Source of the DNA: Candidatus Bathyarchaeota archaeon | GTDB lineage: Archaea; Thermoproteota; Bathyarchaeia; Bathyarchaeales; Bathycorpusculaceae | Direction of reading: 5' to 3' | Assembly (NCBI GenBank): GCA_012515445.1 | Contig: JAAYYI010000067.1 | Span: 1 to 58,903 of the forward strand | Length of the DNA: 58,903 nucleotides | Shown here: positions 11,715 through 45,304 of the stretch, one piece after another | Layout of the letters: every line of letters starts with the position of its first letter | Position numbering within the stretch: position 1 is the first letter of the stretch | Translations under genes and position numbers: made by a program | Notes under the pieces: generated by a model | The model's input: the letters and a program-made list of their open reading frames with translations, nothing else | The model's database searches: none | Told to the model about the DNA's origin: nothing

Positions 11715-11734
11715 GACAGATGTATCTTAAGCGT

Positions 11735-12484
11735 TTATCTAATGGCTTTTTTCAAAGCTACGAAACACAGTCCGAAGAATGCAGCGCCGAAAAGCATTAG
11801 AACAGCAAGCGACAGCCAAGGGAAGGGTTGTCCAAGCGCGGAAGCCCTAAGGCAGAGGCAGGCATGAGTCAGCGGCGAAGCATACAACACGGCAATTAAT
11901 GCGTCGGGAACCTGACTGAGCGAGAAGAAGGTGCCGCTTAGAAAAGACATCGGCAAAATCACCAGACTCATAAACAGCGTCATGTCCTGGTGGGTCTTAG
12001 CCAGCAGGGCAACTATGACGCCTAAGAAGGAGAAAGCGAAACAGGTCAAAACTAAGCTTAATGGGAAAAGTAGGTTCATAGTGGGCAGCGGCGAAAATGC
12101 CAATGCAACCGCTAGTATAGCGGCTGAACTCATCAGTCCCCGCACAACGCCGATCAAGGCTTTACCTACGATTATGGAGAATGGGCTCACGGGCGCCATC
12201 AGGGTTTCGTCGAAGCACTTGTAGAATAATCGGTCCACATGTAGCTTAAGCCCTGAAGTGTTAAACGCTGTTGTCATGGCGGTTAAGGCGATGATTCCGG
12301 GGATTACGAAGTCAAGGTAGCTGTAACCCTCAACTAGGGTGCCTCTGCCTAATCCGTAGCCGAACGCCAACAGGTAAAGCACCGGTGCAATGAGCGTCAA
12401 AGCCATTGTTTTAGTTAGGTTGCGGCGCAGAAAACGCAGATCAACCCATACGACTGTGCCTATATCCTGCAGGGTTTCAAGCAT
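11735..12484 (-). CDS. ABC-2 type transporter permease
   Basis: The 249-residue protein has six predicted membrane helices and an N-terminal amphipathic stretch (VWVDLRFLRRNLTKT), the layout of ABC-2 exporter permeases. FVIPGIIALTAMTTAFNTS and SFLSGTFFSLSQVP are typical family segments. It partners with the ATPase gene just upstream: the coding regions overlap by about 8 nt, indicating translational coupling. A GTG one codon earlier (12487) is an alternative start. Substrate unknown; this class exports drugs, lipids or polysaccharides. It converges on the surface-protein gene with a gap of about 20 nt. Confidence 0.9.
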   Translation of the reverse strand: MLETLQDIGTVVWVDLRFLRRNLTKTMALTLIAPVLYLLAFGYGLGRGTLVEGYSYLDFVIPGIIALTAMTTAFNTSGLKLHVDRLFYKCFDETLMAPVSPFSIIVGKALIGVVRGLMSSAAILAVALAFSPLPTMNLLFPLSLVLTCFAFSFLGVIVALLAKTHQDMTLFMSLVILPMSFLSGTFFSLSQVPDALIAVLYASPLTHACLCLRASALGQPFPWLSLAVLMLFGAAFFGLCFVALKKAIR

Positions 12485-13385
12485 CACCGTCTGCCTCCAC
12501 CTTTTTGCCTGTTAACTTTACAAAGACATCTTCCAAGCTTGAGTCGCGCACAACCGCCTTAACGTCAGAGGGCAAACATTGCATGTACGCTAATGCTTCT
12601 TGCCTGTCGACGAAATGCTCATAGCGAGTGTATTCTCCTCCGACCAGCATCTCAACAGTCGCCAAACCAACCTGCCCTCGAAGCTCGGAGGGTGAACCCA
12701 GCGCAATCAAATGTCCCTGATTAACGATGCCGACACGCGAACAGAGCGCTTCAGCCTCCTCAATGTAGTGAGTAGTTAGAAATATGGTTGTGCCGCTTCG
12801 GCTTAACTTGCGGATCAAATCCCACATGCGCCGCCTTATCTGGACATCTAAACCTACCGTAGGTTCATCTAGGAAAATAATTTTGGGCTGATGCAGCAAT
12901 GCGCGGGCAATCATCGCTGCTTTTTTCATTCCGCCCGATAAATCTTCAACCAACCGTTCACTCTGCTTAGTTAAGCTTACAAACTCCAGAAGTTCATCTA
13001 TGCGCTGTCTGCGTATGTTTTTTGGGATGTGATGTAAGCGGGCATGCAGCTCCATGTTTTCCCTCAGGTTCAGGTCTAAGTCAAATGTGAAATGCTGCTG
13101 GACAACGCCTATTACCCGTTTAACTTTCTCTGGTTCACTCGCTACATTGAATCCACAGACTGAAACTGACCCCGAGGTGGGCTTTGCAAGTCCGGTTAGG
13201 GCGCGGATGGTTGTTGTTTTGCCTGCTCCGTTGGGGCCGAGAAAGCCGAAGATTTCCCCGTTTTCTATGCTGAGGTTTAGGTTTTCTACTGCGCAGACAT
13301 CTTTGTACCGCTTTGTAAGGTTATGTATCTCGATAGCTTTCTCCACTGCCCAATACCCCCGCTGATGCAAGTACTTACTAACCAT
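12477..13385 (-). CDS. ABC transporter ATP-binding protein (DrrA/CcmA-like)
   Basis: The 302-residue ATPase has Walker A GPNGAGKTTT, the signature LSGGMKKA, Walker B KIIFLDEPTVGLD and the switch His in TTHYIEEAE. The C-terminal extension ending in SSLEDVFVKLTGKKV is typical of daunorubicin-resistance-type exporter ATPases. It energises the ABC-2 permease encoded immediately downstream. The ATG at 13385 is used; a GTG at 13346, giving MEKAIEIHNL at the usual family start, is equally possible. Cytoplasmic, membrane associated. Confidence 0.92.
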   Translation of the reverse strand: MVSKYLHQRGYWAVEKAIEIHNLTKRYKDVCAVENLNLSIENGEIFGFLGPNGAGKTTTIRALTGLAKPTSGSVSVCGFNVASEPEKVKRVIGVVQQHFTFDLDLNLRENMELHARLHHIPKNIRRQRIDELLEFVSLTKQSERLVEDLSGGMKKAAMIARALLHQPKIIFLDEPTVGLDVQIRRRMWDLIRKLSRSGTTIFLTTHYIEEAEALCSRVGIVNQGHLIALGSPSELRGQVGLATVEMLVGGEYTRYEHFVDRQEALAYMQCLPSDVKAVVRDSSLEDVFVKLTGKKVEADGDA

Positions 13386-23658: not shown

Positions 23659-23767
23659 GTATGGGCAGCCCAAGCAAACTCTTTTTCTAAGTTATCGCGT
23701 TTTGTTTGATCCGCCTTATTATGGTAAACACTTTAATACTTTTACATACAACCGTCAACTGAGTATT

Positions 23768-25717
23768 ATGCGCAAAAAAGCACTATTGCTATCAGTAGCC
23801 TTGATCTGTCTACTGCTTTCTTTTGTTGCATACGAAATATTATACTCTCAAGTACCGGTAAATAATGTACCGCAGAATAATAATGGAACCAAAGGAAACG
23901 ACGATGATCCCAGTGTGACGCCGTCTCCAACGGTAACTATTGAGCCAACTAATGACGATAATCAACAAACCAATCAACCGAACAATAACAATAACCAAGG
24001 CTCAGGAAAAACAATCTACCCCACCACGCCTCCCACTGTTGATCCGTCAGTTCCCGATATCTCATCACCCCATCAAAAGGACCACGAAAAAGCCTCCGAC
24101 TACACCTGGAACAGTACAGAAGTCGTCAACGTGGCATTAAACGGCAACTCAATAACCACCTCTACGCCAAAAAACGTCACAATCGAAGGCAGCAAAATAA
24201 CAATAACCTCCGCTGGTAACTACCGCTTTACAGGCTCATTAACAGATGGACAAATCATCGTTAATACCCAAGATAAAGACACAGTCCGCCTCATTTTAAA
24301 CAACATAGACATATCCTGCTCAAATAGCGCCCCCATCTATGTTATGGCAGCCAAAAAAACAATAATAATCCTAGAAGAGAACACCGTAAACACGGTAAAG
24401 GATACCAAAACTGGAAGCACAGTGGAGCCCAATGCAGCAATCTTTAGCGCTGCCGATTTAACCATTTTCGGGTCGGGACAACTAAAGGTACAAGGAAACA
24501 ATAACGATGCAATCTCCAGTAAGGACGGATTAATCATTAAAAGCGGCAGCATCAATGCAGACGCACTTGACGATGGTATCCGCGGAAAAGACTACTTAAT
24601 CATCAAGGGCGGAAGCATAGTAGTGACAGCAGGTGGTGATGGATTCAAGTCTGATAACGATGAAGCCGCCAGTAGAGGCTATGTCACCATAGAAGACGGT
24701 GTTATTTCTATCACTTCCGGCGGAGACGCAATAAGCGCCCGTACAGATGCAACTATAACCGGTGGCCAATTTACCTTAACCGCCGCCGGCGGCAGTAGCA
24801 GCGGTATCGGCTCAAGCTTATCAGCTAAAGGAATCAAAGGCATAGTGAACGTTACCATAACTGGTGGTTCTTTTACAGTAAACACAGCAGATGACTGCAT
24901 ACATTCCAACAGAACCGTAACCCTAACCGGAGGATTGTTTACACTCTCAACTGGCGATGACGCTATCCATGCGGATAAACAGATTACAATCAGAGGCGGA
25001 ACGATAGATATCTTGGAATCATACGAAGGGATAGAAAGCACTGACATTTTAATTGAGGGAAATTCGGTTATCCATATAACTTCAACTGATGACGGGATAA
25101 ACGGTGCAGGTGGAAATGATGGTTCAGGATTTAGACCGCCGCCTGATTTTCCTGGTCCCGGAGGCGGTTTTGTACCTGGTAGTCGAACGCTCACAATTAA
25201 CGGCGGCTATATAGTGGTTACTAACAACGGTAACCCCGACGGCGACGGTATCGATATAAATGGGCCAATCACAATGACTGCCGGTTACGTAATAATTAAC
25301 GGTCCGAAACCTGGTTTAGGCGAGAGTGCTATAGACTGGGAGGGCTCCTTTACAATGAGTGGCGGCTTCATCTTAGGTGTTGGGAGCTCAGTTATGCCCA
25401 TGACTGTAGGGCAAACGTCAACGCAATGCGGGTTGCTATTGAACTTTAGATCGGCTAAACCAGCCGGAACCCTCATCCACATTCAAAGCAGCACAGACAC
25501 AGAAGTCATAACATTTAATCCGGTAAAATCATTCCAGTCAATAGCTATCTCCTCACCTCAACTGAAAATTGGTTCAAGCTACGACCTCTACTTAGGCGGC
25601 AGCTCCACTGGAATACTCTCTGATGGCGTCTACCAAAACGGTGTTTATACTCCCGGAACCAAAACCGGCCCCACCTTAACTCTCTCAAATATTGCAACTA
25701 CTCGGTACAACCTTTAG
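23768..25717 (+). CDS. DUF4353 (Cthe_2159-like) beta-helix surface protein
   Basis: The 649-residue protein has an N-terminal signal anchor (MRKKALLLSVALICLLL), an Asn/Gln/Pro/Thr-rich linker to about residue 110, then a right-handed beta-helix with repeated GG-x(3)-I-T units and Asp-rich turns (DDGIRGKD, GGDGFKSDND, ADDCIHSN). This is the DUF4353 family, where Cthe_2159 binds calcium and carbohydrate. A Gly/Pro-rich loop (about 455-475) interrupts the helix. The start is ATG at 23768. It faces the VTC-DUF4956 pair, a known gene neighbourhood. Confidence 0.88.
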   Translation: MRKKALLLSVALICLLLSFVAYEILYSQVPVNNVPQNNNGTKGNDDDPSVTPSPTVTIEPTNDDNQQTNQPNNNNNQGSGKTIYPTTPPTVDPSVPDISSPHQKDHEKASDYTWNSTEVVNVALNGNSITTSTPKNVTIEGSKITITSAGNYRFTGSLTDGQIIVNTQDKDTVRLILNNIDISCSNSAPIYVMAAKKTIIILEENTVNTVKDTKTGSTVEPNAAIFSAADLTIFGSGQLKVQGNNNDAISSKDGLIIKSGSINADALDDGIRGKDYLIIKGGSIVVTAGGDGFKSDNDEAASRGYVTIEDGVISITSGGDAISARTDATITGGQFTLTAAGGSSSGIGSSLSAKGIKGIVNVTITGGSFTVNTADDCIHSNRTVTLTGGLFTLSTGDDAIHADKQITIRGGTIDILESYEGIESTDILIEGNSVIHITSTDDGINGAGGNDGSGFRPPPDFPGPGGGFVPGSRTLTINGGYIVVTNNGNPDGDGIDINGPITMTAGYVIINGPKPGLGESAIDWEGSFTMSGGFILGVGSSVMPMTVGQTSTQCGLLLNFRSAKPAGTLIHIQSSTDTEVITFNPVKSFQSIAISSPQLKIGSSYDLYLGGSSTGILSDGVYQNGVYTPGTKTGPTLTLSNIATTRYNL

Positions 25718-26413
25718 CTAAAGCATGCCTTTTTGGGAAAGCTGCTGGTTACGGCAAATAACGTATTTACCCAAAGCTAATCGCGGTCGGATGGTGTCTG
25801 GGAAGAGTCCTCGAATGTATTCGGGAAAAACCTCGGTGTATTTCACTTCTAGAACCACTGGAAAATCCAAAACACTCATTGTAGGCGCCTCTTTATCGAA
25901 AAATGTGTTTACTGCTAGTCCACTACGTAAACAGGTGTCAAAGGTTATCCTCACGTTGCCTATTGGATGAACATAGGCTTCCCTTTCATATTCAACCAGA
26001 GTTACAGGACGCATAATCTTACATTTGGACTCCAGATAGAACTCTTGTAGTAACCGATTATCTGTTCTGGCGAAAAAATCAAAGTCTTCTGCTATTAACC
26101 GATCAGCTTCACGGCGCGTTACTCGAGTGGTATTTTTTAGTACATATTGACCGATTTTGCTTTTGCATTCAAACTTTATTACTGAATCACTATGGTTATA
26201 GATGCGTAGCCTATACTTTTTTCTTTTAAAAACTCCGGCCTGTTTATTGTGGTAAGCCGAGTCTTCGTAGTCGTCGAAGTAGAGTGTCCGAACATTGTAG
26301 CTTCTATGCGGCAGCATATGTGGGTCAGGTTTCAGGATGGCGGCTAACTTTTTCTTTAGAACGTGATATTCCAATGCGTTGATTTGGTACTTTAACTCGT
26401 GTCGTAGAGTCAT
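25718..26413 (-). CDS. VTC domain protein, polyphosphate polymerase-like
   Basis: The 231-residue protein contains a VTC domain: RHELKYQIN at the start, RTLYFDD, KYRLRIYN, FECKSK, LVEYEREAY and VVLEVKYTE, all with basic or acidic tunnel residues expected of the polyphosphate polymerase VTC4. It probably makes polyphosphate from ATP in the cytoplasm. The stop immediately abuts the convergent DUF4353 gene. It is encoded just downstream of DUF4956 (5-nt gap), forming an operon. Triplets of VTC, DUF4956 and DUF4353 are recurrent, so the three likely work together in surface or spore-coat-like matrix formation. Confidence 0.88.
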   Translation of the reverse strand: MTLRHELKYQINALEYHVLKKKLAAILKPDPHMLPHRSYNVRTLYFDDYEDSAYHNKQAGVFKRKKYRLRIYNHSDSVIKFECKSKIGQYVLKNTTRVTRREADRLIAEDFDFFARTDNRLLQEFYLESKCKIMRPVTLVEYEREAYVHPIGNVRITFDTCLRSGLAVNTFFDKEAPTMSVLDFPVVLEVKYTEVFPEYIRGLFPDTIRPRLALGKYVICRNQQLSQKGML

Positions 26414-26418
26414 TGTGA

Positions 26419-27081
26419 TTATGCTGAATCAGAGTTGTAGCTTACAATCGAAGCGTCTTTTACCCCGTTAATCTTAAGCAGTTCATCAACTTGTGGTATC
26501 TCTTTAGCGTTCATCCTTACTTCCCCCATAAACTCTACTCCTTCAGCGTTAACTGTTCGAGAACGAACTTTATGTTTAGGCAGGGCTGTCTGCAGGGCGG
26601 CTTCTGCATCGCTTGTGTAGTGTACAACCATCAGGTAGGATTCTGGTCCACGGAGTTTAATGCGTTCTAAAACAAACAGCATAACAATGATTATTGGAAC
26701 CCCTACTATGGCTACTATGTATAAGCCTGCACCGCAGATTATGCCGACGGTTATTGTCCAAAACGTGAAAACGATGTCTTTCGGGTCCTTGATAGCTGTT
26801 CTAAAACGAACAATGCTTAATGCTCCAAGCATACCTAGTGACAGCGCAATGTTGGAGCTTATTGGTAAAACAACTAAGGTGACTACTAAACCGGTTAATA
26901 CTAAACCCACATTGAAGTCCCGATTATAGATGACTCCTCTAAACGTTTTACGGTAGATAAAAAAAATCAACAGGTTGATTAAAAAAGACATAACCAGTGC
27001 TATTACTACCCGGTCTATTGTCAATGATGAAAACATGTTAGCGGGATTCAGAAATTCGTTAAGGAGCTGCTGTAAATCCAT
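26419..27081 (-). CDS. DUF4956 membrane protein
   Basis: The 220-residue protein has about four helices (residues 25-45, 57-77, 83-100 and 110-145) with the DUF4956 core SLGMLGALSIVRFRTAIKDPKDIVFTFW split across two helices. A soluble C-terminal domain of about 75 residues follows. It is the first gene of a two-gene operon with VTC and is probably its membrane partner. A TATA-like element lies at 27110-27119. Confidence 0.9.
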   Translation of the reverse strand: MDLQQLLNEFLNPANMFSSLTIDRVVIALVMSFLINLLIFFIYRKTFRGVIYNRDFNVGLVLTGLVVTLVVLPISSNIALSLGMLGALSIVRFRTAIKDPKDIVFTFWTITVGIICGAGLYIVAIVGVPIIIVMLFVLERIKLRGPESYLMVVHYTSDAEAALQTALPKHKVRSRTVNAEGVEFMGEVRMNAKEIPQVDELLKINGVKDASIVSYNSDSA

Positions 27082-27493: not shown

Positions 27494-29434
27494 ATGATTG
27501 AAACCCTGTTTTCGTTGAGCTTAATTGTTTTACTTATTGCAGCAACAATATCCCTCTTAGGCACTAAAACATCATATAGTAAAATTGCTAGGCGAATTTC
27601 TCTTGTCTTAGCTACCACAGCAAGCATCTTTATGCTGGCTTTCGCCGCTGAAATCTTGCTCACAGACGGAAACTACTCAGTTCTTGCTTACCAAATCACC
27701 CCCACCTTCCAGTTCAGCTTCATGGTGGACCGATTAGCCGCGTTTTTCTTATCAATCATAAGTATCGTTTCTGTTGCAGTTTCTATCTATTCAATCCCGT
27801 ATGTTGAGCATGAAGAGCACGAGGACAGAAAAAACCTCATAGTTGGCTTAATGTGCTTCTTCATCCTATCAATGCTGCTTGTTATCGCCTCGTTTAGCAT
27901 GTTCTCTTTTCTGTTCTTCTGGGAAATTATGGCGTTAAGCTCTTTCTTGCTGGTCATGACTGACTTTGAGAAGAAGGAAACCCAGAAAGCAGGCATATTT
28001 TACTTCGTCATGACCCATCTGAGCACGCTTTTCCTGTTCTTCGCTTTCTTGTTCATCTACCTGCAAACAGGCACATTCGACATTGCAGCGATACGTGCCG
28101 ATCCACTGGTAACATCGATTGCGTTTGGTTTCCTGTTTTTGGGTTTTGGCATAAAAGCAGGCATAATCCCATTCCACAAGTGGCTTCCATACGCCCATCC
28201 AGCTAGCCCCTCAAACATAAGCGCGCTGATGTCAGGCGTCATGATTAAAGTCGCCATATACGGCTTAGTTCGCTTCCTATTCCTCTTACCGCTACAGACC
28301 TGGTGGGGCATACTAATTCTGGCTATGGGAACACTTTCAGCCGTTCTAGGCGTAATTTATGCCATAAAAGAGCATGACATTAAACGTTTACTCGCCTACC
28401 ACAGCATCGAAAACATTGGCATCATACTAATCGGCGTAGGTTTATACGTCATCTTCACCGTCGAAGGCTTCCAATCCATAGGGATGCTTGCTCTCCTCGG
28501 CGGCCTCTTCCATACCTTAAACCATGCCATCTTCAAAAGCCTCCTATTCATGACTTCAGGCTCTATAGTGAACGCCACTGGAACAAGAAACATCGAAGAA
28601 ATGGGTGGATTAATCAAACGCATGCCAAAAACCGCGATGCTCTTCCTAATCGGCGCAGTATCCATCTCCGCACTACCTCCATTCAACGGCTTCATAAGCG
28701 AACTCATGATATTCCAAACCTTCTTCCAGTCCTCAGTTCTATCAAACTCATTTCTCGAACTTCTCCTCCTACTCGCCTTAGCAGTCTTCGCCCTAACAAG
28801 CGCGCTTGCAGCAGCATGCTTTGTAAAAGCCTTCGGCGTAACCTTCCTTGCGCTGCCCCGTTCGCATGAAGCAAAAGCGGCTAAAGAATCACCTAAACTC
28901 ATGATTATAGGGTCAGCCATACTCGCGGGACTCTGTGTTGTGCTGGGTATTTTCTCTTCGCAAATCTTTGGCTTGTTAGGGTTCTCTATAGCGGTACCCA
29001 ACATGCTCTTTATCGGCGTCATCTTGGCGGGCTTCTATGGGTTAATCTTCCTAGCTATGCGTGAAATCGCAAACCGAAATGAGCGAGTAACCGAAACCTG
29101 GGGCTGTGGTTATCCAATGCAGAACTCCAAGATGGAGTACACCGCCTCGGGCTTCTCCGAGCCCATAGTAACCATACTCAAAGGCATATTCCGAACGCAG
29201 AAGACGAGCGAACGCAGTTTCCATGACGATAAAAAATCCGTCTTCAAAGAGGGCAAAGCCGAAATTCACCTACTCAAATTCTTCGAGGAACGCCTCTACT
29301 TGCCAGTTGCAAACGCTGTCAAAAAAATTGCAGAAAAAGTTAACAGTATGCAACGTGGCGACGTTGACTTGCATGTCGCATACGGCTTTGTAATGATAGT
29401 GATTTTGCTACTGATAATTTGGTGGTTTGCATGA
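27494..29434 (+). CDS. HyfB-like proton-antiporter subunit of hydrogenase-4-like complex
   Basis: The 646-residue protein is an Mrp/NuoL-type subunit with about 16 helices. The conserved Glu in FFWEIMALSSFLLV, the Lys in GIKAGIIPFHKWLP, SGVMIKVAIYG and AYHSIENIG mark the ion channel, so proton or sodium translocation seems intact. A soluble C-terminal part (WGCGYPMQNSKMEYTASGFSEP) is typical of HyfB/HycC. ATG at 27494 is used. First gene of the six-gene operon, overlapping the next by 4 nt. Confidence 0.92.
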   Translation: MIETLFSLSLIVLLIAATISLLGTKTSYSKIARRISLVLATTASIFMLAFAAEILLTDGNYSVLAYQITPTFQFSFMVDRLAAFFLSIISIVSVAVSIYSIPYVEHEEHEDRKNLIVGLMCFFILSMLLVIASFSMFSFLFFWEIMALSSFLLVMTDFEKKETQKAGIFYFVMTHLSTLFLFFAFLFIYLQTGTFDIAAIRADPLVTSIAFGFLFLGFGIKAGIIPFHKWLPYAHPASPSNISALMSGVMIKVAIYGLVRFLFLLPLQTWWGILILAMGTLSAVLGVIYAIKEHDIKRLLAYHSIENIGIILIGVGLYVIFTVEGFQSIGMLALLGGLFHTLNHAIFKSLLFMTSGSIVNATGTRNIEEMGGLIKRMPKTAMLFLIGAVSISALPPFNGFISELMIFQTFFQSSVLSNSFLELLLLLALAVFALTSALAAACFVKAFGVTFLALPRSHEAKAAKESPKLMIIGSAILAGLCVVLGIFSSQIFGLLGFSIAVPNMLFIGVILAGFYGLIFLAMREIANRNERVTETWGCGYPMQNSKMEYTASGFSEPIVTILKGIFRTQKTSERSFHDDKKSVFKEGKAEIHLLKFFEERLYLPVANAVKKIAEKVNSMQRGDVDLHVAYGFVMIVILLLIIWWFA

Positions 29435-30372
29435 ATATCGCTCTACTGTTAGCTTATGGCATAATCAACACTCTATTTGTCCTGCTTGTTTCGCCGCTGT
29501 TCATCAGCTTAATCAAGAAGGTGAAGGCTTATGCGCAGGGCAGAAGGGGCCCCTCGCTACTGCAGACTTACCGTAACCTCGCCAAACTGCTCAAGAAGGA
29601 AACGGTTTACTCCCAGAACAGTTCCTGGATTATGCGTGCAACGCCAATCATCAACTTAGCCGCGCTACTGGTCGCCAGCCTCTTTGTTCCCCTAATCTAC
29701 TTGCCAGAACCCACAGACCTAGTTGGAAACATCATCCTGTTTCTCTATCTATTGGCGCTCGCAAAATTCTTTATGGCGCTCGCAGGCCTCGACGCGGGTA
29801 GCAGCTTCGGCGGTATGGGCAGCAGCAGAGAAATGGCGATATCCGCCTTAATCGAACCCATCATCATGCTTGTCTTCGCCTCGCTAGCGTTCGCTTACAA
29901 GACCGTTAGCATCCCAGACATGTTCCGGGGCGCTTTAGCCAACAACGTATTCGACCCAGTAGCTGTACTGGTAGCTGTCTCTCTATTCATTGTAATCGTC
30001 GTTGAATCCTCACGTGTGCCGGTAGACAACCCCGAAACCCACCTCGAGTTAACCATGATTCACGAAGCTATGATTCTGGAGCAATCAGGCAAGAACTTGG
30101 CTATGATGGAGCTCTCAAGCGCTATGAAGCAGCTTCTGCTGATGGGTGTATTGCTTAACATACTGGTTCCATGGGGATTAACAACGGATTTCTCTCCTGT
30201 ATCCCTCGCAGTCGCTTTAGCTGTCTTCCTACTAAAAGCAGTAATCTTGGCAGTTGTCATAGGCTTATTCGAATCCTGCGCAGCAAAATCCCGATTCTTC
30301 CGCCTGCCCGGCTTATTCGCGATAGCACTATTCCTGGCAGTTGTCACGTTGATCATTGAGGTGTTCGCATGA
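29431..30372 (+). CDS. HyfC/HycD/NuoH-like membrane subunit
   Basis: The 313-residue protein has about eight helices and the family signatures GRRGPSLLQTYRNLAKLLKKE, FGGMGSSREMAISALIEP and PVDNPETHLELTMIHEAM with the acidic residues that link the peripheral arm to proton transfer. Its start overlaps the HyfB stop (ATGA), as does the next junction. This subunit anchors the hydrophilic subunits in complex I-like enzymes. Confidence 0.92.
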   Translation: MNIALLLAYGIINTLFVLLVSPLFISLIKKVKAYAQGRRGPSLLQTYRNLAKLLKKETVYSQNSSWIMRATPIINLAALLVASLFVPLIYLPEPTDLVGNIILFLYLLALAKFFMALAGLDAGSSFGGMGSSREMAISALIEPIIMLVFASLAFAYKTVSIPDMFRGALANNVFDPVAVLVAVSLFIVIVVESSRVPVDNPETHLELTMIHEAMILEQSGKNLAMMELSSAMKQLLLMGVLLNILVPWGLTTDFSPVSLAVALAVFLLKAVILAVVIGLFESCAAKSRFFRLPGLFAIALFLAVVTLIIEVFA

Positions 30373-31070
30373 TCCTACCGACTGAGCAATTAACCCAGAT
30401 TCTAATGGTAATGGTACTGGCAACCGCAGCTATCATAATAATGAAGCGTGATATCCGCTCACTCATCAAAACCTACGCATTCCAGTCCCTACTTGTGGCG
30501 GTCATGGCGTTGGTTTTCTATATAGAAACAGGCGCCGTAACACTCTTGCTCTTAGCAGTCGTATTCATCATCAGCAAAGTCTGGATTATCCCACACTTTA
30601 TGGGTAAAGTACAGCAGAAACTCAACATTAAACGCGACATAAAATTTCACTTCCTCTCGCCCATAACAGCCCTGATCGTCAGCCTATTCATCCTCTTATT
30701 CGTCTACCTCGCCTTCACGCCCCTGATAGCTGAACTTAATCGCTTCAACTCAACGCTGTTCACTCTAGGCGCAACAGTGGGCGTCTCCATCGTCTTCATG
30801 GGCATGATAGTTATCTTCACTCGTAAACAGACGCTAACAAACGTAGTCGGTTACCTCACTATGGAGAACGGCGTAGTACTCTTCAGCCTGTTCTTAACTG
30901 AGTTGCCGATGCTAATCGAGATACTCATCATAATAGACCTGATCATGCTAACCCTGATCGCCACAGTGCTGGCGTTTGGTATCGACTCCACAATCGAAGA
31001 GTTCCATGCACGCCTAAACCCCTTCAGCCGCGAGCAACAGACAAAGAAACCTGAGGAGACAACACAATGA
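30369..31070 (+). CDS. HyfE-like membrane subunit
   Basis: The 233-residue protein has about seven helices and the HyfE pattern: a NuoK-like C-terminal half (TNVVGYLTMENGVVLFSLFL and ELPMLIEILIIIDLIMLT with conserved Glu/Asp residues). The polar C-terminal tail is charged. It overlaps HyfC and HyfF by 4 nt at both ends, fixing it as part of the operon. Predicted to contribute to the ion path. Confidence 0.85.
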   Translation: MILPTEQLTQILMVMVLATAAIIIMKRDIRSLIKTYAFQSLLVAVMALVFYIETGAVTLLLLAVVFIISKVWIIPHFMGKVQQKLNIKRDIKFHFLSPITALIVSLFILLFVYLAFTPLIAELNRFNSTLFTLGATVGVSIVFMGMIVIFTRKQTLTNVVGYLTMENGVVLFSLFLTELPMLIEILIIIDLIMLTLIATVLAFGIDSTIEEFHARLNPFSREQQTKKPEETTQ

Positions 31071-32542
31071 ATTCGCTTGACATAATCCTCGCATTATACG
31101 CTGTACTCGGCGCCGCCATAACCGTTGCAACATGCCTAAGCAAGTCGCATAAGACACAGAATACACTATCAATGATTCTGCCCGTATGCTACCTCGCATT
31201 AACCCTCTACATCCTAATGGCTACACAGCTTCCCGCATACGGACTCGGCAGCGACTACTTCCTAATCGACCACCTAAGCATCTACGAAATCCTAATAGCC
31301 GCAACACTGTTCCTGCTAGCCGCAGTCTACTCACGCCAATATGTCAAGGACTCCATCTTTATCCATGAGATGGATGAGAGTAACCTCAGACTCTACTATG
31401 CAGCCTTCAATATGCTGCTAATGGCGGTCGTTTACGTGTTCTTAGCGGACAATTTGGCTCTGTTCTGGATACTCGCCGAGTTAACAACAGCCTTCTCTGC
31501 CATCCTAATCGTCATCCTAAATGCCCCTAAAAACATCGGAGCCGCTCTGAAGTACATCTTCATAACCAGCACCTGCATGCTCTTCGCATTCATCGGTTTA
31601 ATCCTCATCTTCACACTAACCGAAGACCTGATTGGAGTCGGCACCCTAAACTGGAGCATGCTAATGTCAGTGGCAGGCGGCTTGTCGCCGGGTATAATGT
31701 TTGCCGCATTCATCTTTACATTCGTGGGTTTCGCGGCGAAAAGTGGTATCGTACCATTCCACGCTTGGCTACCTACAGCCTACTCCAAAGCGCCGGGACC
31801 CATAAGCGCAATCCTCTCTGGCACCGTAACCACCATCGGCGTCTACGGTATACTTCGAATGTACACCATAGTAGCGCAGACAGCGGCAATCGGCAAAATC
31901 CAAATTCTCCTGATCGCGTTTGGCGTAATCAGCATGATTATAGCCGCGTTAACTATGCTGCGCGAGCCCAACCTCAAGAAGCTCATCGGCTACAGCTCAA
32001 TCGAACACATGGGCTTCGTACTGGTCGGACTCGGCATCGGAACATCCGTCGCCATGTTCTGGGTGGTCTTCTACTTCTTAGCCCACGCCTTTACCAAATC
32101 CTCGCTTTTCCTCTCCGCAGGAATCATAAAACATCAATATGGCAGCGTACGGCTTGAGTACATAAAAAACGTCTTCCAGCTGCAATCCTTCGCCGGCTGG
32201 AGCCTAATATTGGGTGCCTTCTCAATAATCGGCATGCCCGTCTCTGCAATTTTCCTTGCTAAACTAGGTATCCTCGCGCAATCAACGTTGGTCTCGCCTG
32301 TGCTGACGGTTGTCCTGTTAACCGTTTTCCTGTTTGCCGCCGCTGCGTTTGGAGTATTCATGATAAAGATGCTCTCAAGAAAAGAAGACTCAACCGCAGA
32401 TGTACCGTACTTCCACGTTGGCTGGGGTATGAAGATACCAATTGCTATACTACTCGCCATAGTCTTCGTGCTTGGCTTGTTCTTCCCAGAGCAACTAACC
32501 ACGCTACTTAACACTATAGTTTCCGAATTGGGGGTAACCTAA
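31067..32542 (+). CDS. HyfF-like antiporter subunit
   Basis: The 491-residue protein is a second NuoL/M/N-type antiporter subunit of about 14 helices. Channel residues are visible as Glu in LFWILAELTTAFSAIL and Lys in GFAAKSGIVPFHAWLP, and the discontinuous-helix region IGYSSIEHMGFVLVG is present. In the helix after HAWLP the sequence is SGTVTTIGVYG, where many homologues have Lys. With HyfB it gives the complex two channel modules. Confidence 0.9.
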   Translation: MNSLDIILALYAVLGAAITVATCLSKSHKTQNTLSMILPVCYLALTLYILMATQLPAYGLGSDYFLIDHLSIYEILIAATLFLLAAVYSRQYVKDSIFIHEMDESNLRLYYAAFNMLLMAVVYVFLADNLALFWILAELTTAFSAILIVILNAPKNIGAALKYIFITSTCMLFAFIGLILIFTLTEDLIGVGTLNWSMLMSVAGGLSPGIMFAAFIFTFVGFAAKSGIVPFHAWLPTAYSKAPGPISAILSGTVTTIGVYGILRMYTIVAQTAAIGKIQILLIAFGVISMIIAALTMLREPNLKKLIGYSSIEHMGFVLVGLGIGTSVAMFWVVFYFLAHAFTKSSLFLSAGIIKHQYGSVRLEYIKNVFQLQSFAGWSLILGAFSIIGMPVSAIFLAKLGILAQSTLVSPVLTVVLLTVFLFAAAAFGVFMIKMLSRKEDSTADVPYFHVGWGMKIPIAILLAIVFVLGLFFPEQLTTLLNTIVSELGVT

Positions 32543-34099
32543 ATGTCACTACTAGAACAAATCGAAAGAATGATCGGCCCACTTGGCGCAGTTGAAGGAA
32601 AAAACAATGAACTCTACGTTTCCGTCTCAGCGCAGGAACTGCAAAGAGCCATACCTTTCCTCTCCACTACCGGCTACGAATTAGTCAGTCTCTTTTGCGC
32701 TCAAGACTTCGACGGCTTAGGCTTCACATTATTCTATGTCTTCGAAAAAGCGGGATTCAAACAGGCGCTGGTTATACGGACCGATTTAGGTGACGACGAA
32801 ACAGTCTCCATCGCCAAAACCTACCCATCTGCATGCTGGTATGAACGAGAAGTCGCCGACGGCTTCGGCATACAATTCCACGGGGCCTACGACACGCGAA
32901 GGCTCTTTTTACATGAAACATACCCCCAAGGCTTCCATCCGCTACTGAAATCCTTCAAGAACAGCAAAATTCGAACGGTGGAATCCAGCGAGAAAAACCA
33001 GTACCAATTCAAGCAAATGAACGGCGAAGGTGTCTGCCACGTTGCAGTAGGCCCAGTCCACGCAGGCATAATCGAGCCGGGTCACTTTCGCTTTAGCGTA
33101 ATCGGCGAAACAATATTCAATCTCGAAGTGCGCATGTTCTATAAACATCGTGGACTCGAAAAACTCGCTGAAGGCAAAACGCCTATTGAATGCGTTAAGA
33201 TTGCTGAAGCAGTGAGCGGCGACGAAACTACCGCAAACGCGGTCGCCTATTGTATCGCGGTTGAGAAAATTTGCGACGTAGCGGTTCCGAGGCGGGCGCT
33301 TCAGTTACGCATGTTGCTTCTTGAACTTGAGCGGGTTTACTCGCATCTCGGCGACTTGGCGGGCATGTGCGTTGATGTGGCGTACCCAGTTGGAGCCAGT
33401 CCATTCTTTGTATTGCGTGAGGAAATTTTTCGCCAAAACGAGGCGTTAACTGGCAGTCGCTTCCAGAAGGGTACCGTAGCAGTCGGCGGTTTAACCAGAG
33501 ACATCCCGGCAGATGCACTCAAGAGCCTCTCAGCTTATCTGGCGGATTTCAAGAGCCGATTTAATTTGGCGACGCATATTGACAGCTCCTTCTTTTCGGT
33601 AGTTGACAGGTTCGAAACGACAGGTATAGTAAAATCTGAACTGCTTGAACCCCTTCATATCACTGGCCCAATTGCGAGGGCAGCAGGAAAAGCAGTCGAC
33701 ACAAGAGTCGACCACCCGTACGACTTATACGCCGAATTGAAACCTAAACTGATAACTACTGAAAGCAGTGATGTGTTAGCCCGCTTCTACATTAAGTCGC
33801 AGGAAGTCAACGATTCAATTCGACTAATTCAAATGGTGCTTAGTCAACTTGATGGTGGCTTGGTTTCGGTGCCTTGGGAAGTTAAAGATGGCTACGCGTT
33901 ATCTATTGTGGAGGCGCCGCGAGGCCAAAGCATACATTGGCTTTACATTAAAAACGGTAAAGTTGATCGCTACAAGATTCGAACGGCTTCCTTCTGTAAC
34001 TGGCAAGCCATCGAGCACGCCGTACTTGGCAACATCGTACCTGACTTTCCACTCATTAACAAAAGCATGAACCTGTCCTATGCAGGAACGGACCTGTGA
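32543..34099 (+). CDS. HyfG-like large subunit without [NiFe]-ligand cysteines
   Basis: The 518-residue protein fuses a NuoC-like domain (about 1-150; ACWYEREVADGFGIQFHG) to a NuoD/HycE-like domain. In HycE the first metal motif is CGxC and the C-terminal one DPCxxC. Here the aligned segments are AVSGDETTAN (Ser225, Glu228) and SMNLSYAGTDL (Ser512, Gly515), so all four [NiFe] ligands are gone. The rest of the fold, including KHRGLEKLAEG and RVYSHLGDLAG, is kept. It cannot be a hydrogenase by this site. The start is preceded by GGGGGTAA. Confidence 0.9.
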   Translation: MSLLEQIERMIGPLGAVEGKNNELYVSVSAQELQRAIPFLSTTGYELVSLFCAQDFDGLGFTLFYVFEKAGFKQALVIRTDLGDDETVSIAKTYPSACWYEREVADGFGIQFHGAYDTRRLFLHETYPQGFHPLLKSFKNSKIRTVESSEKNQYQFKQMNGEGVCHVAVGPVHAGIIEPGHFRFSVIGETIFNLEVRMFYKHRGLEKLAEGKTPIECVKIAEAVSGDETTANAVAYCIAVEKICDVAVPRRALQLRMLLLELERVYSHLGDLAGMCVDVAYPVGASPFFVLREEIFRQNEALTGSRFQKGTVAVGGLTRDIPADALKSLSAYLADFKSRFNLATHIDSSFFSVVDRFETTGIVKSELLEPLHITGPIARAAGKAVDTRVDHPYDLYAELKPKLITTESSDVLARFYIKSQEVNDSIRLIQMVLSQLDGGLVSVPWEVKDGYALSIVEAPRGQSIHWLYIKNGKVDRYKIRTASFCNWQAIEHAVLGNIVPDFPLINKSMNLSYAGTDL

Positions 34100-34103
34100 G
34101 ATT

Positions 34104-34628
34104 ATGGCAGCGAAAGTACTCAGAAACATAGTTCATAAAAAAGTAACCGAGGACTTAGAGTTTAAAGACGTGGAATTCGAAGCCTTAGGGTTCCAATTAA
34201 AAGAGAAAATCGATAAAGTCTTCGGCAGGAGCTTGGCTATACGTGAACTTGACGCAGGCAGTGACAACGCTACTGAAATCGAGTTAAACAACCTCTCAAC
34301 ACCCTATTATGATGTTGAACGCTTCGGCATTGGCTTTGTTGCTTCCCCACGCCACGCAGATGTCCTAATAGTATGCGGAGCAGTAACGCTGAATATGGAG
34401 ATCGCTGCCAAGAAAACCTACGATGCCATGCCTTCGCCGAAGTTTGTTGTCGCCGTGGGAGACGACGCCTGCGGCTGCGGGATACTAAATGAGTCCTACG
34501 CCGTGCTTGGAGGAGCAGATAAAATATTCAACGTAGACCTAAAAATCCCTGGTAATCCACCGTCTCCAAAAGACGTGATAAGAGGCCTTTTCGCGTTAGT
34601 ATGTGAGATAAAGAAGCAAAAGGCATAA
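34104..34628 (+). CDS. HyfI/NuoB-like small subunit without Fe-S ligand cysteines
   Basis: The 174-residue protein keeps the NuoB fold: LAIRELDAGSDNATEIEL, VERFGIGFVASPRHADVLIV, CGAVTLNM, VVAVGDDACGCGIL and PPSPKDVIRGL. In hydrogenases and NuoB four Cys bind a [4Fe-4S] cluster. At those positions this protein has Asp54, Thr57, Asp121 and Asn151. Other cysteines (91, 123, 125) are at non-ligand sites. Last gene of the operon, followed by a T8 tract. ATG at 34104 is preferred since the longer start would run into HyfG. Confidence 0.9.
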   Translation: MAAKVLRNIVHKKVTEDLEFKDVEFEALGFQLKEKIDKVFGRSLAIRELDAGSDNATEIELNNLSTPYYDVERFGIGFVASPRHADVLIVCGAVTLNMEIAAKKTYDAMPSPKFVVAVGDDACGCGILNESYAVLGGADKIFNVDLKIPGNPPSPKDVIRGLFALVCEIKKQKA

Positions 34629-42093: not shown

Positions 42094-42990
42094 ATGTTAG
42101 AAGAAGACCTGAAAGAAATAGAGGCGCTTACAAAGGTTAAACTAAAGAACCTAGACAAGTGCTTCTACCCCGATGCCGACGTAACGAAAGGACAAGTCAT
42201 CGAGTACTACATTAAGATGGCCCCCAAGATATTGCCCGTCATAGCCAATCGCCCACTAGTGTTAACCCGCTACCCCGACGGAATAAAAGACGTCAAGCTA
42301 GGCAAAACAAGTTTCTTCGAAAAAAACGCGCCTGAAGGCACTCCTGACTGGGTGAAACGTCATACAATTTACTCACCTACTTCCAAACGCGATGTACACT
42401 ACATAGTCTGCAACGACTTGGATACTCTTATTTGGCTAGCAAATTTAGCGGCGCTGGAAATCCACATGCCTTTTGCCACTACAGAAGATGTGGATCGACC
42501 TGACTTGCTGTTTTTCGATGTTGACCCTGAACCGCCAGCCACGTTAAGCGATGCTGCTGGGGTTGCGCTGCTTCTTCGGGATAACCTGCGTGAAATGGGC
42601 ATGACGCCTTATGTGAAGACTTCGGGCAAAAAGGGCTTGCATGTTGTGATCCCTATCGTGCCCGAGTACTCGTTTGATGTGGTGAGGAATTTTGTGCATA
42701 AAGTAGGTATAGCGCTGGCAAAGCAGAATGACTTGGTGGTGTCGGAGTTTAAAGATACAAAAAAGCCGGGTAAAGTCTTCGCTGATTACCTCCAGAATTC
42801 GCCGATGCGCACGATGGTTATTCCCTACAGCCTGCGCCCGACGGCGGAAGCGACCGTATCTACTCCCTTAGAGTGGAGTGAGGTTAAGAAAGGATTAAAC
42901 CCCTCTGACTACACCCTTAATAGTGTCCCAAAACGACGTGTTAATCCGTGGAAGGACATTTTTGAGAACAGATGTCACTTGGAGATTTAG
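42094..42990 (+). CDS. ligD: LigD-type polymerase (PrimPol) of NHEJ
   Basis: The 298-residue protein is the polymerase domain of bacterial and archaeal LigD, an AEP-superfamily enzyme that fills gaps at broken ends with ribo- or deoxynucleotides. Motifs seen: LDKCFYPDADVTKGQVIEYY at the start, LLFFDVDPEPP with two catalytic aspartates, and SGKKGLHVVIPI, which holds the nucleotide-binding site. It is the first gene of the NHEJ operon. Here the polymerase is a separate protein rather than fused to ligase. Confidence 0.92.
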   Translation: MLEEDLKEIEALTKVKLKNLDKCFYPDADVTKGQVIEYYIKMAPKILPVIANRPLVLTRYPDGIKDVKLGKTSFFEKNAPEGTPDWVKRHTIYSPTSKRDVHYIVCNDLDTLIWLANLAALEIHMPFATTEDVDRPDLLFFDVDPEPPATLSDAAGVALLLRDNLREMGMTPYVKTSGKKGLHVVIPIVPEYSFDVVRNFVHKVGIALAKQNDLVVSEFKDTKKPGKVFADYLQNSPMRTMVIPYSLRPTAEATVSTPLEWSEVKKGLNPSDYTLNSVPKRRVNPWKDIFENRCHLEI

Positions 42991-42992
42991 TT

Positions 42993-43832
42993 ATGGAGCA
43001 AGAACACGAACAGGAAACTTCAGAGCAACAGAGTACAGAGAAAGCCAGTGCGCCTGCGCCTAGCCGTTCAATCTGGTCCGGCTCAATAACCATCGGCCTC
43101 GTCAACGTACCCGTTAAATTATACTCGATGATTTATGACAAAGGCATAACTTTCCATTTCCTGCATAAAACCGACGGCCAACCAGTCAAATATGTGAAGA
43201 TGTGCACTAAAGAGGACAAAATAATCCCCTGGAATGAGGTTGTGCGCGGCTACGAGGTCGCCAAAAATGAGTATATCACCTTTGACAAGAAGGAGCTTGA
43301 TGCTGTGAAGCCGGAGTCGGATAAGCGCATAAGAATCAGCAAATTCGTCGATTACTTCTCAGTTGATCCAGTTTACTTCGACCGCACTTATGCGCTTCTG
43401 CCGGATAAGAGTAAAGACGCCTACAGCCTGTTGCTTAAGGCGTTGGAGCGCACAAATAAAGCCGGAGCAGGACGCATTACGCTGCGCACAAAAGAGTACC
43501 CGGCGCTTCTCCACACCTACAAGGGCGCACTGGTTCTGACTACGCTGCGGTATGCCTACGACGTGGTTGACCCAAGGGACTTTGAGAAGCTCGGCAAACT
43601 GGAGGAGCCGCAGAAAGCCGAACTTGACTTAGCCGTTAAAATCGTATCTGACCTCTCAGGCGACTTCGACATAACCGAATTCCAAGACACCTACATGCAA
43701 CGCATACAGAAGCTAGTTGAGGAAAAACTTAAGGGCGAAAAAATCACAGTGGAGAAAGCCCCCGAAGTCGAAGCAAAAGGCCTCATGGTTGCGCTACGGG
43801 AGACGCTTAAACAGCTGGAACAGCAGAAATGA
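42993..43832 (+). CDS. ku: Ku DNA end-binding protein
   Basis: The 279-residue protein is a homodimeric Ku: SIWSGSITIGLVNVPVKLYS at the N-terminal core, FVDYFSVDPVYFDRTYALLPD and ARITLRTKEY-like segments, and a C-terminal charged tail. It binds double-strand ends and recruits the ligase. ATG at 42993 is preferred, with GGAG about 8 nt upstream; the ATG at 42972 would overlap the polymerase gene. It overlaps the ligase start by 4 nt (ATGA), so the proteins are coupled. Confidence 0.95.
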   Translation: MEQEHEQETSEQQSTEKASAPAPSRSIWSGSITIGLVNVPVKLYSMIYDKGITFHFLHKTDGQPVKYVKMCTKEDKIIPWNEVVRGYEVAKNEYITFDKKELDAVKPESDKRIRISKFVDYFSVDPVYFDRTYALLPDKSKDAYSLLLKALERTNKAGAGRITLRTKEYPALLHTYKGALVLTTLRYAYDVVDPRDFEKLGKLEEPQKAELDLAVKIVSDLSGDFDITEFQDTYMQRIQKLVEEKLKGEKITVEKAPEVEAKGLMVALRETLKQLEQQK

Positions 43833-45304
43833 GCCGCCACCGCATCTACAAACCAATGCTTGCACTGGCAGCAAACGACGCCTTCACCGATAAGGACTGG
43901 ATTTATGAAATCAAATGGGACGGCTTTCGCGCAATCGCCTACGTTGAGCAGCCGTTTAGCCTTAGGAGCCGCAACGGCAAGGAGCTTAAACAGAATTTTC
44001 CCGAGCTACAGCAGATAACTGGCCTCGCCACAGACGTTGTGGTGGACGGAGAAATCGTGGTCATGGCGGAGGGTGCACCGGATTTTCAGGCGCTGCTAAA
44101 GCGGGGACAAGCGGTTTCAGTCGGAGAAATCACTCGACAGTCGCAGCGTTCACCCGCAATCTACATAGTTTTCGACATTTTAGAAAAAGACGGCAAACCC
44201 CTCGTTGACCTGCCATTAATGGAGCGCAAAGCAATCCTTAAAGACTCCCTAAAAGAGGGCGCAAACGTGCTCCTCTGCGATTACATAGAGGAAAAAGGCG
44301 AAGCTTACTTCAAACTGGTTTTAGAAAAGGGTTTAGAGGGAGTTGTAGCTAAGAGAAAGGATAGTTGCTACGAGGAAGGCATGCGAACTGGGAGCTGGCT
44401 TAAAATAAAGAAGCTAAAAACCGCCGACTGCATAATCTTTGGCTACACATGCGGCGAGAACGTCAGGGCGGAGACCTTCGGCGCGCTAGTATTAGGCCTC
44501 TACGATGAAGCGCAGAAACCAGTTTACGTCGGAAAAGTCGGCACAGGGTTCACACAGGAAATGCTGCGCATATTGGTAGACAAATTTGAAAAGATAACAA
44601 CTGAGGAGGCCCCGTTTCGCGCTGAAAGCGGCGACAAAGTTACTTGGCTCAAACCACGCCTCGTCTGTGAGGTAGCCTACCAAGTGGTAACAAAGGATGG
44701 GAAACTGAGAATGGCGCGTTTCAAACGATTAAGAGACGATAAACCACCCGAGCAATGTACGCTCGACCAGTTAACACAAATACAGCCAAAAACCGAGACG
44801 CCGGTGGAAGCACAGAACCCAAAGCAGCTCCAACCCGCAGATGCCAAGTTGTCAGAGTACGCTTCTAAACGCAACTTCCAAGAAACCCCCGAACCCGCGG
44901 GCACAGCAGAAAACAAAGAAACCCTAATCTACGTTATCCAAGAGCACCACGCTAGCCACCTGCACTGGGATTTAAGGCTTGAAAGCGGCGGCGTACTCAA
45001 AAGCTGGGCAGTACCCAAAGGCATCCCCGAAGAACCCAAAGTGCGGCATCTCGCAGTAGAGACCGAAGACCACCCCTACGAGTACGCAAGCTTCGAAGGC
45101 ACAATCCCAAAAGGCCAATACGGAGCGGGTACAGTGAAAATTTGGGATAAAGGCCACTATAAAACCAAGGTCTGGGAACCAAACAAGATCGAGGTCACTT
45201 TAGAAGGCGAGCGTTTACACGGTAACTATGTTCTTGTTCGCTTGAAGAAATCTGAGGACAACAAGAACTGGCTGCTGCTTAAGGGAAAAGACGGTCATGG
45301 CTAA
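43829..45304 (+). CDS. ligD: NHEJ ATP-dependent DNA ligase with C-terminal phosphoesterase domain
   Basis: The 491-residue protein has the adenylation domain first (residues 1-200; Lys29 in EIKWDGFR), an OB domain to about 320, a linker, and a LigD-type 3'-phosphoesterase from about 360 (HHASHLHWDLRLESG, WAVPKG, HPYEYASFEGTIPKGQYGAG). Bacterial LigD usually has PE before the ligase; here the order is ligase-PE. It seals ends after trimming of 3' phosphates or ribonucleotides. Last enzyme of the NHEJ operon; its stop overlaps the DUF72 start by 8 nt. Confidence 0.93.
   Translation: MSRHRIYKPMLALAANDAFTDKDWIYEIKWDGFRAIAYVEQPFSLRSRNGKELKQNFPELQQITGLATDVVVDGEIVVMAEGAPDFQALLKRGQAVSVGEITRQSQRSPAIYIVFDILEKDGKPLVDLPLMERKAILKDSLKEGANVLLCDYIEEKGEAYFKLVLEKGLEGVVAKRKDSCYEEGMRTGSWLKIKKLKTADCIIFGYTCGENVRAETFGALVLGLYDEAQKPVYVGKVGTGFTQEMLRILVDKFEKITTEEAPFRAESGDKVTWLKPRLVCEVAYQVVTKDGKLRMARFKRLRDDKPPEQCTLDQLTQIQPKTETPVEAQNPKQLQPADAKLSEYASKRNFQETPEPAGTAENKETLIYVIQEHHASHLHWDLRLESGGVLKSWAVPKGIPEEPKVRHLAVETEDHPYEYASFEGTIPKGQYGAGTVKIWDKGHYKTKVWEPNKIEVTLEGERLHGNYVLVRLKKSEDNKNWLLLKGKDGHG

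Follow-up and report, generated by a model that had tools for sequence, protein, structure and literature searches.

The window analysed here is a 58,903-nucleotide stretch of DNA from a Candidatus Bathyarchaeota archaeon (GenBank assembly GCA_012515445.1, contig JAAYYI010000067.1, positions 1 to 58,903; contig C46 of a 2.44-Mb draft genome estimated to be 92% complete), and it carries a six-gene operon, hyfB-C-E-F-G-I (27494-34628, + strand), related to hydrogenase 4 and respiratory complex I. This operon encodes a conserved complex that lacks the usual redox centres, both the [NiFe] ligands of the large subunit and the proximal [4Fe-4S] ligands of the small subunit having been replaced. The conclusion is well supported: purifying selection has conserved the substitutions, no clade member examined retains the cysteines, no linked soluble partner recurs, and no ferredoxin subunit was found next to the genes. 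Judged from sequence comparison, the chances are about even that the product is a cofactor-free energy-converting hydrogenase-related (Ehr) complex that would move ions without electron transfer.

In the large subunit, HyfG, Ser225/Glu228 and Ser512/Gly515 were found by HMMER to align with the two CxxC pairs of Escherichia coli HycE (7z0s_E), as the original prediction had claimed for the [NiFe] sites. The codons of Ser225-Gly226-Asp227-Glu228 (33215..33226, + strand, as are all the sites given here) occupy the first CxxC site of [NiFe] hydrogenases, with S225, D227 and E228 each present in 65/65 rows of the alignment described below, and those of Ser512-Tyr-Ala-Gly515 (34076..34087) occupy the second, with S512 and G515 in 64/64 rows. 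In the small subunit, HyfI, alignment to relatives placed Asp62, Thr65, Asp129 and Asn159 where relatives have the four cysteines that hold the proximal [4Fe-4S] cluster; the original prediction had numbered the same residues 54, 57, 121 and 151, eight lower because it counted from Met9. The Asp62-Asn-Ala-Thr65 codons (34263..34274) cover the CxxC of the cluster site (D62 in 64/64 rows, N63 in 65/65), the Asp128-Asp129-Ala-Cys131 codons (34461..34472) surround the third ligand (D128 in 64/65, 63 Asp and 2 Glu among the 65 rows at position 129, C131 in 65/65), and Asn159 (34554..34556; 64/64) stands at the fourth. The cysteines of HyfI were thus replaced mainly by acidic or amide residues, and the predicted replacements at Asp62, Asp129 (with a few Glu) and Asn159 held, whereas Thr65 proved variable (T/A/V/P). 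The operon accordingly possesses neither the two [NiFe]-binding CxxC motifs nor the proximal [4Fe-4S] ligands and linked ferredoxin-like subunit of group 4 [NiFe] hydrogenases, and it lacks the cluster N2 cysteines of respiratory complex I.

A first scan of the genome collection yielded 43 loci, a set that later searches enlarged to an alignment of 143 HyfI and 147 HyfG rows; some genomes were retrieved twice, and thinning left 65 double-loss rows. Loss at both subunits was found in 78 loci including the window (own-genome duplicate loci and matches below 60 bits excluded), and the large subunit read SESG in all 78 loci with small-subunit loss, two of which contained an X in a small-subunit ligand column while in two others the large subunit was broken into two frames and contained X. 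A further locus, L045, contributed its ligand-free large subunit only. Among the sampled loci, small-subunit loss with the [NiFe] cysteines kept was seen only in six Chloroflexota loci (L141-L146). Codons at the replaced ligand sites varied synonymously, and the median ratio of nonsynonymous to synonymous rates (dN/dS) was 0.100 for HyfI (highest, 0.304; 137 of 174 pairs used, 80-98.5% identical and with a synonymous rate, dS, of 0.05-1.5) and 0.112 for HyfG (highest, 0.258; 75 of 76 pairs used). Purifying selection on the substitutions, which the original prediction had proposed as a check, was therefore borne out with medians of 0.10-0.11 and near-invariant replacements save Thr65; the combination of intact-cysteine close homologues and relaxed selection that would have spoken against it was not found, no examined member of the clade having the cysteines. 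Within HyfG, H173, E178 and R460 were also conserved (E178 and R460 in 64/64 rows each). All six genes occurred together and in order in 34 of the 37 loci longer than 9 kb, and two of the other three were cut by a contig end. At L045 (Altiarchaeales IMC4, 11512-13000) five operon genes were present, and no credible small subunit was detected in the 21.5-kb locus (best E 0.47); 33 letters N follow the operon there, so that an assembly gap is possible.

Four ligand states were sampled, namely both sites intact, large-subunit ligands lost with small-subunit ligands kept, both lost, and large-subunit ligands kept with small-subunit ligands lost (L141-L146). The second state is that of cluster-bearing Ehr operons of Proteobacteria plasmids (L090-L097), Methanosarcinales (L114-L127), Thermoproteota (L174-L185) and some Chloroflexota. 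Like the window operon, the plasmid, Methanosarcinales and Thermoproteota operons have the hyfBCEFGI core (in stretches of sufficient length to show it), lost [NiFe] ligands and similar SGD and SY.G motifs, with SGDE in the Thermoproteota identical to that of the double-loss clade; unlike the window operon, all those examined keep four small-subunit proximal [4Fe-4S] cysteines. The small subunits of Thermoproteota Ehr that were examined (L174-L185 and L215) carry an N-terminal ferredoxin remnant with four cysteines only, a pattern that would fit the disappearance of one cluster out of two; in L215 the remnant scored barely above the Pfam Fer4 cut-off.

Trees were built without the ligand columns and rooted at the midpoint, the first from 121 of 142 loci (pairs more than 93% identical were cut) and the second from a hand-picked reduction with 12 Thermoproteota loci added (91 rows). 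The double-loss rows formed one clade in both, with Shimodaira-Hasegawa-like approximate likelihood ratio support of 100 (65 of the 121 rows) and 99 (34 of the 91 rows). This clade grouped with plasmid and Methanosarcinales Ehr at 94 and, with Thermoproteota Ehr added in the second tree, at 93, both values lying below the level starred by the tool; the trees left the branching order among the grouped Ehr lineages undecided, and Chloroflexota Ehr rows fell elsewhere. Given the midpoint roots, the word loss rests on the occurrence of cysteine-bearing forms on all sides. A single origin of cluster loss shared with L141-L146 was rejected by the approximately unbiased (AU) test (p 0.0024), which used a quick tree and groups chosen once the first tree had been seen. 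Loss of the small-subunit cluster site thus seems to have happened on at least two occasions, with an acidic residue at 62 and 129 each time: the L141-L146 small subunits have D62 in 6/6, E or D at 129, and D or S at 159. These six Chloroflexota operons (larger stretches, L158-L163) are hydrogenase-4-like and keep both large-subunit CxxC motifs, so that what looks like a [NiFe] enzyme has a break in its electron wire, and a tandem 4Fe-4S motif was present in the small-subunit frame of all six.

The complex is conserved in archaea of several phyla and in some bacteria (Chloroflexota). In the genus of the window organism the operon was found in 7 of 32 genomes, its own included (at least 65% identity), and in its phylum in 3 of 398 drawn genomes, with cluster-bearing Ehr in 12 more, all of which had the four cysteines. 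The small-subunit motif occurred in 19 of 150 genomes of the order to which a Methanomicrobiales locus belongs (Glu at 129 in four), and the large-subunit motif was confirmed in 18 of the 19. Matches were obtained in 13 of 301 genomes of the phylum of a Dehalococcoidia locus and in 16 of 149 genomes of the order of a Methanosarcina locus, with double loss in 16/16 of the latter. A further 35 genomes of that order contained a relative at 51-57% identity, and the 14 examined all had four cysteines; motifs went unread, for want of a locus, in 21 of these 35 Methanosarcinales matches and in 6 of 36 Chloroflexota matches. Each of the 51 matching genomes among the 149 (16 double-loss, 35 relatives) had one match and never two at E 1e-30, so the two forms look mutually exclusive.

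To locate a ferredoxin subunit, E. coli HyfH was compared with the loci by tblastn, and none of 97 double-loss loci matched, many of them offering only about 1.5 kb of flank. The same query matched 14/14 cluster-bearing Methanosarcinales loci, 7/12 Thermoproteota loci, 6/6 of L141-L146 and 1/8 plasmid loci, the sole plasmid match being L095, which holds a second complex. A tandem 4Fe-4S motif was likewise present in 0/96 of the double-loss small-subunit frames, some of which were shortened by a stop at the match start. Together, these results indicate that plasmid Ehr retains one cluster site and the double-loss clade none. A linked ferredoxin gene had at first appeared in 10 of the 97 clade loci with a Methanosarcinales HyfH query; nine of the ten matches were out-of-frame DNA at the hyfG end, because the query began inside hyfG, and the tenth (L046) lay about 10 kb from the operon in a 540-aa frame, so the candidate was discarded. 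The prediction that no ferredoxin-like subunit or hydrogenase maturation gene adjoins the operon held for the 36 of 52 window open reading frames of at least 120 aa that were scanned; HypD is encoded on another contig of the genome, and the two HyfH-like proteins of the genome (150 and 155 aa) belong to operons on contigs C79 and C52. Two other related large subunits, encoded on those contigs, each have all four [NiFe] cysteines. The four cluster cysteines are complete in the small subunit of C52; the C79 stretch examined yielded no small subunit.

The search for a linked soluble partner that had been suggested along with the prediction also came back empty, since neighbour clustering over the 43 loci and the window revealed no neighbour gene recurring across phyla. 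Non-operon neighbour families reached at most 16 loci and, classified by eye only, presumably include a kinase, a response regulator and an ABC ATPase; two scanned methanogen neighbours were, upstream, an acetyltransferase whose cluster occurred in 9 loci and, downstream, an alpha/beta hydrolase seen in 7. A link to an ATPase was considered and dropped, an ATP synthase cluster standing beside the Methylovirgula operon only and beside none of the nine other annotated bacterial loci, for which gene tables were incomplete. On that Methylovirgula plasmid (L090, 1-4737) the ATP synthase cluster, with AtpZ/AtpI-type genes, is divergent from the adjoining cluster-bearing Ehr operon, and its gene order resembles what we take to be that of an N-ATPase. 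Three Burkholderiales plasmids (L093, L095 and L186) each carry spermidine synthase-like genes in the vicinity of the six-gene Ehr operon; YoaK-family genes accompany it in two of them, L093 and L186, as they do in Rhizobium L097 and L190. One further locus was an ordinary formate hydrogenlyase-type cluster, and some loci lacking annotation were set aside.

The predicted architecture of tight overlaps and intact frames was confirmed, all six genes being intact and overlapping or abutting, with ATGA overlaps at the B/C, C/E and E/F junctions and zero N within the operon stretch. In order on the + strand, these encode a HyfB/EhrA-like antiporter subunit (27494..29434; 646 aa from ATG 27494; Pfam PF00361, Proton_antipo_M; NCBIfam NF006418 at 874 bits, above cut-off), a HyfC/EhrB-like NuoH subunit (29431..30372; PF00146, NADHdh), a HyfE/EhrC-like membrane subunit (30369..31070; no Pfam match, NCBIfam NF008556 'hydrogenase 4 membrane subunit' at 63 bits, below cut-off), a HyfF/EhrD-like antiporter subunit (31067..32542; PF00361, Proton_antipo_M; NCBIfam NF006427, above cut-off), a HyfG/EhrL-like large subunit of 518 aa without [NiFe] ligands (32543..34099; PF00329, Complex1_30kDa, and PF00346, Complex1_49kDa; HycE alignment, with conserved SGDE and SYAG) and a HyfI/EhrS-like small subunit without proximal-cluster ligands (34080..34628; PF01058, Oxidored_q6, and alignments; 182 aa from 34080 or 174 aa from 34104). 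The ATG of hyfC at 29431 overlaps the hyfB stop; TTG 29419 is a second opening of the hyfC frame, and HyfC residues are numbered here from that codon. As predicted, Glu and Lys residues of the membrane arm are kept: HyfB E144, K221, H228, K252, H340, H344, K348 and E403 were invariant in 36/36 family rows, and HyfC E196, D203, E210, E216 and E221, HyfE E166 and E184, and HyfF E138, K225, H232 and K344 in 37/37. We take these to be channel residues from what is known of the complex I family, and every one of them is identical in E. coli hydrogenase 4, whose HyfB, C, E and F align with the window membrane subunits.

The operon kind is already in print as Pmh/Ehr, the latter name reportedly originating with Coppi 2005. 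According to the consulted part of a 2009 account of Methanospirillum hungatei, Mhun_1817-1822 (Pmh) and the homologous operons of M. acetivorans and M. mazei appear without large-subunit cysteines and may not encode hydrogenases (PMC2686161). Part of a later account names the M. hungatei genes ehrABCDLS and suggests or assumes ferredoxin reduction (PMC4704411). The M. hungatei operon resembles that of the window in its six genes and missing large-subunit [NiFe] cysteines, and the window operon has the same order of four membrane subunits followed by the large and the small one. The small subunit goes unmentioned in the portions of these two accounts covered; in the double-loss clade, ferredoxin reduction through the small subunit is unlikely because its cluster ligands are gone. 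Ehr is likewise characterised by missing metal-binding residues in PMC6349859 and PMC7304191, the relevant sections of which do not treat the small subunit. No statement of small-subunit ligand loss was found in the literature examined, in part, here; the main Ehr survey (Marreiros 2013) lies outside it, and absence from print is not claimed. In databases the operon kind goes under a hydrogenase name, as HyfB and HyfF pass the cut-offs of NF006418 and NF006427, both of them NCBIfam models for a 'hydrogenase membrane subunit', and the named records closest to the window in this operon are Bathyarchaeota and 'Crenarchaeota' assemblies. The original prediction had missed the prior description of the operon kind, the variability of Thr57 (Thr65 here), the cluster cysteines of related Ehr, and the acidic or amide replacement in a second lineage.

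E. coli formate hydrogenlyase, whose HycE (PDB 7z0s) is the best PDB sequence match of HyfG, has, unlike the window operon, [NiFe], a proximal cluster and ferredoxin-like HycB/HycF, as described in part of PMC9474812. MBS sulfane reductase of Pyrococcus furiosus is complex I-like with partly lost [NiFe] ligands and a non-standard proximal cluster, but that cluster is a catalytic [4Fe-4S] on three cysteines and is joined by two further clusters (PMC7684303, consulted in part).

Mrp cation/proton antiporters need no redox input, and their mrp gene set is without hydrogenase-like soluble subunits; to our knowledge they possess no HyfC, HyfG or HyfI counterpart of this kind, and these three proteins are present here. 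In the manner of Mrp antiporters, HyfB-C-E-F-G-I may exchange ions by secondary transport or form a gated ion channel (H+ with Na+ or another cation). The old active-site region would then hold, where the redox site used to be, a gate linked to the channels that is protonatable or binds an ion or a ligand; candidate gate residues are HyfG Glu178, Asp227 and Glu228 and HyfI Asp62/Asp128/Asp129/Asn159. In E. coli formate hydrogenlyase, the consulted part of PMC9474812 places the beta1-beta2 loop glutamate HycE E193 in a putative proton path and describes R478 as a canopy residue. Through the HycE alignment, allowing an inferred 12-residue chain offset, these correspond to HyfG E178 and R460, whose conservation suggests that part of a proton-handling pocket survives without metals. 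The original prediction had proposed an ion-translocating or scaffold complex driven by something other than electron transfer; the conserved complex without usual redox centres stands, while ion movement and its drive are what we infer. Several points weigh against ion movement without electron transfer. The evidence consists of sequences, and kept channel residues do not prove transport without redox drive; the acidic residues and Cys131 may still bind metal; an unlinked partner may have been missed, there being eight weaker ferredoxin-type matches elsewhere in a genome only 92% complete; and SGDE, being common to cluster-bearing Thermoproteota Ehr, is not special to a redox-free complex.

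The main rival, which we regard as a minority possibility of perhaps one in four or five, is that another metal sits where the cluster used to be, coordinated through oxygen (Asp62, Asp128/129, Asn159 and perhaps Cys131), a Lewis-acid or unusual redox site then driving or gating the complex. Such a site would agree with the change of three of the four cysteines to Asp/Glu or Asn, thereafter kept, with the similar change in the six Chloroflexota loci that retain [NiFe] cysteines, for which the AU test rejected a joint clade, and with the invariance of Cys131. That cysteine is, however, also present in 23 of 27 ordinary hydrogenase rows and so is no new ligand, position 65 is free to vary, and no histidine was gained at the small-subunit sites. 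Somewhat less probable is that electron or hydride transfer persists and still drives the complex, an unlinked enzyme supplying a soluble carrier or substrate that binds directly in the HyfG cavity; the conserved cavity residues H173, E178 and R460 favour it, and the SGDE shared with cluster-bearing Thermoproteota Ehr means that the pocket may still serve the same substrate, but the ferredoxin subunit is missing, as is the last cluster adjoining the pocket, and no partner gene recurs. More doubtful again, in our view, is that the six proteins serve a related redox complex of the same cell, whether as its scaffold, as an assembly factor or as an inhibitor that regulates it. The window genome does contain two related large subunits with four [NiFe] cysteines, yet the ordered retention of all six genes in most long loci and the intact channel-type residues, which a scaffold would not need, argue otherwise. 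A hydrogenase in decay, suggested by the loss of all catalytic ligands, was ruled out for practical purposes by the median dN/dS of about 0.1, the open frames and the invariant replacements in archaea of several phyla and Chloroflexota.

Elsewhere in the window, LigD primase-polymerase, Ku and ATP-dependent DNA ligase/phosphoesterase genes are consecutive (42094-45301), a bacterial-type end-joining set in an archaeon. Directly upstream of the operon (23702-27081) lies a Cthe_2159 carbohydrate-binding protein gene, after which come VTC-domain and DUF4956 genes on the strand opposite to it.

How complex I uses redox chemistry to drive the movement of ions has long been a question. With roughly equal odds for and against, the operon may represent a branch of the complex I superfamily without any electron transfer, in which the [NiFe] and proximal-cluster pockets would have turned into a conserved acidic site through which the membrane channels are coupled to the binding of ions or protons, or to a reaction that is not redox, a similar change from Cys to carboxylate having occurred separately in Chloroflexota that keep [NiFe] ligands. 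A natural relative with channel residues and a soluble cap, lacking cluster ligands beside the coupling site, would permit direct tests of an electron-free membrane arm, and this reading would correct both the hydrogenase annotations of such genes and the printed assumption of ferredoxin reduction in a methanogen.

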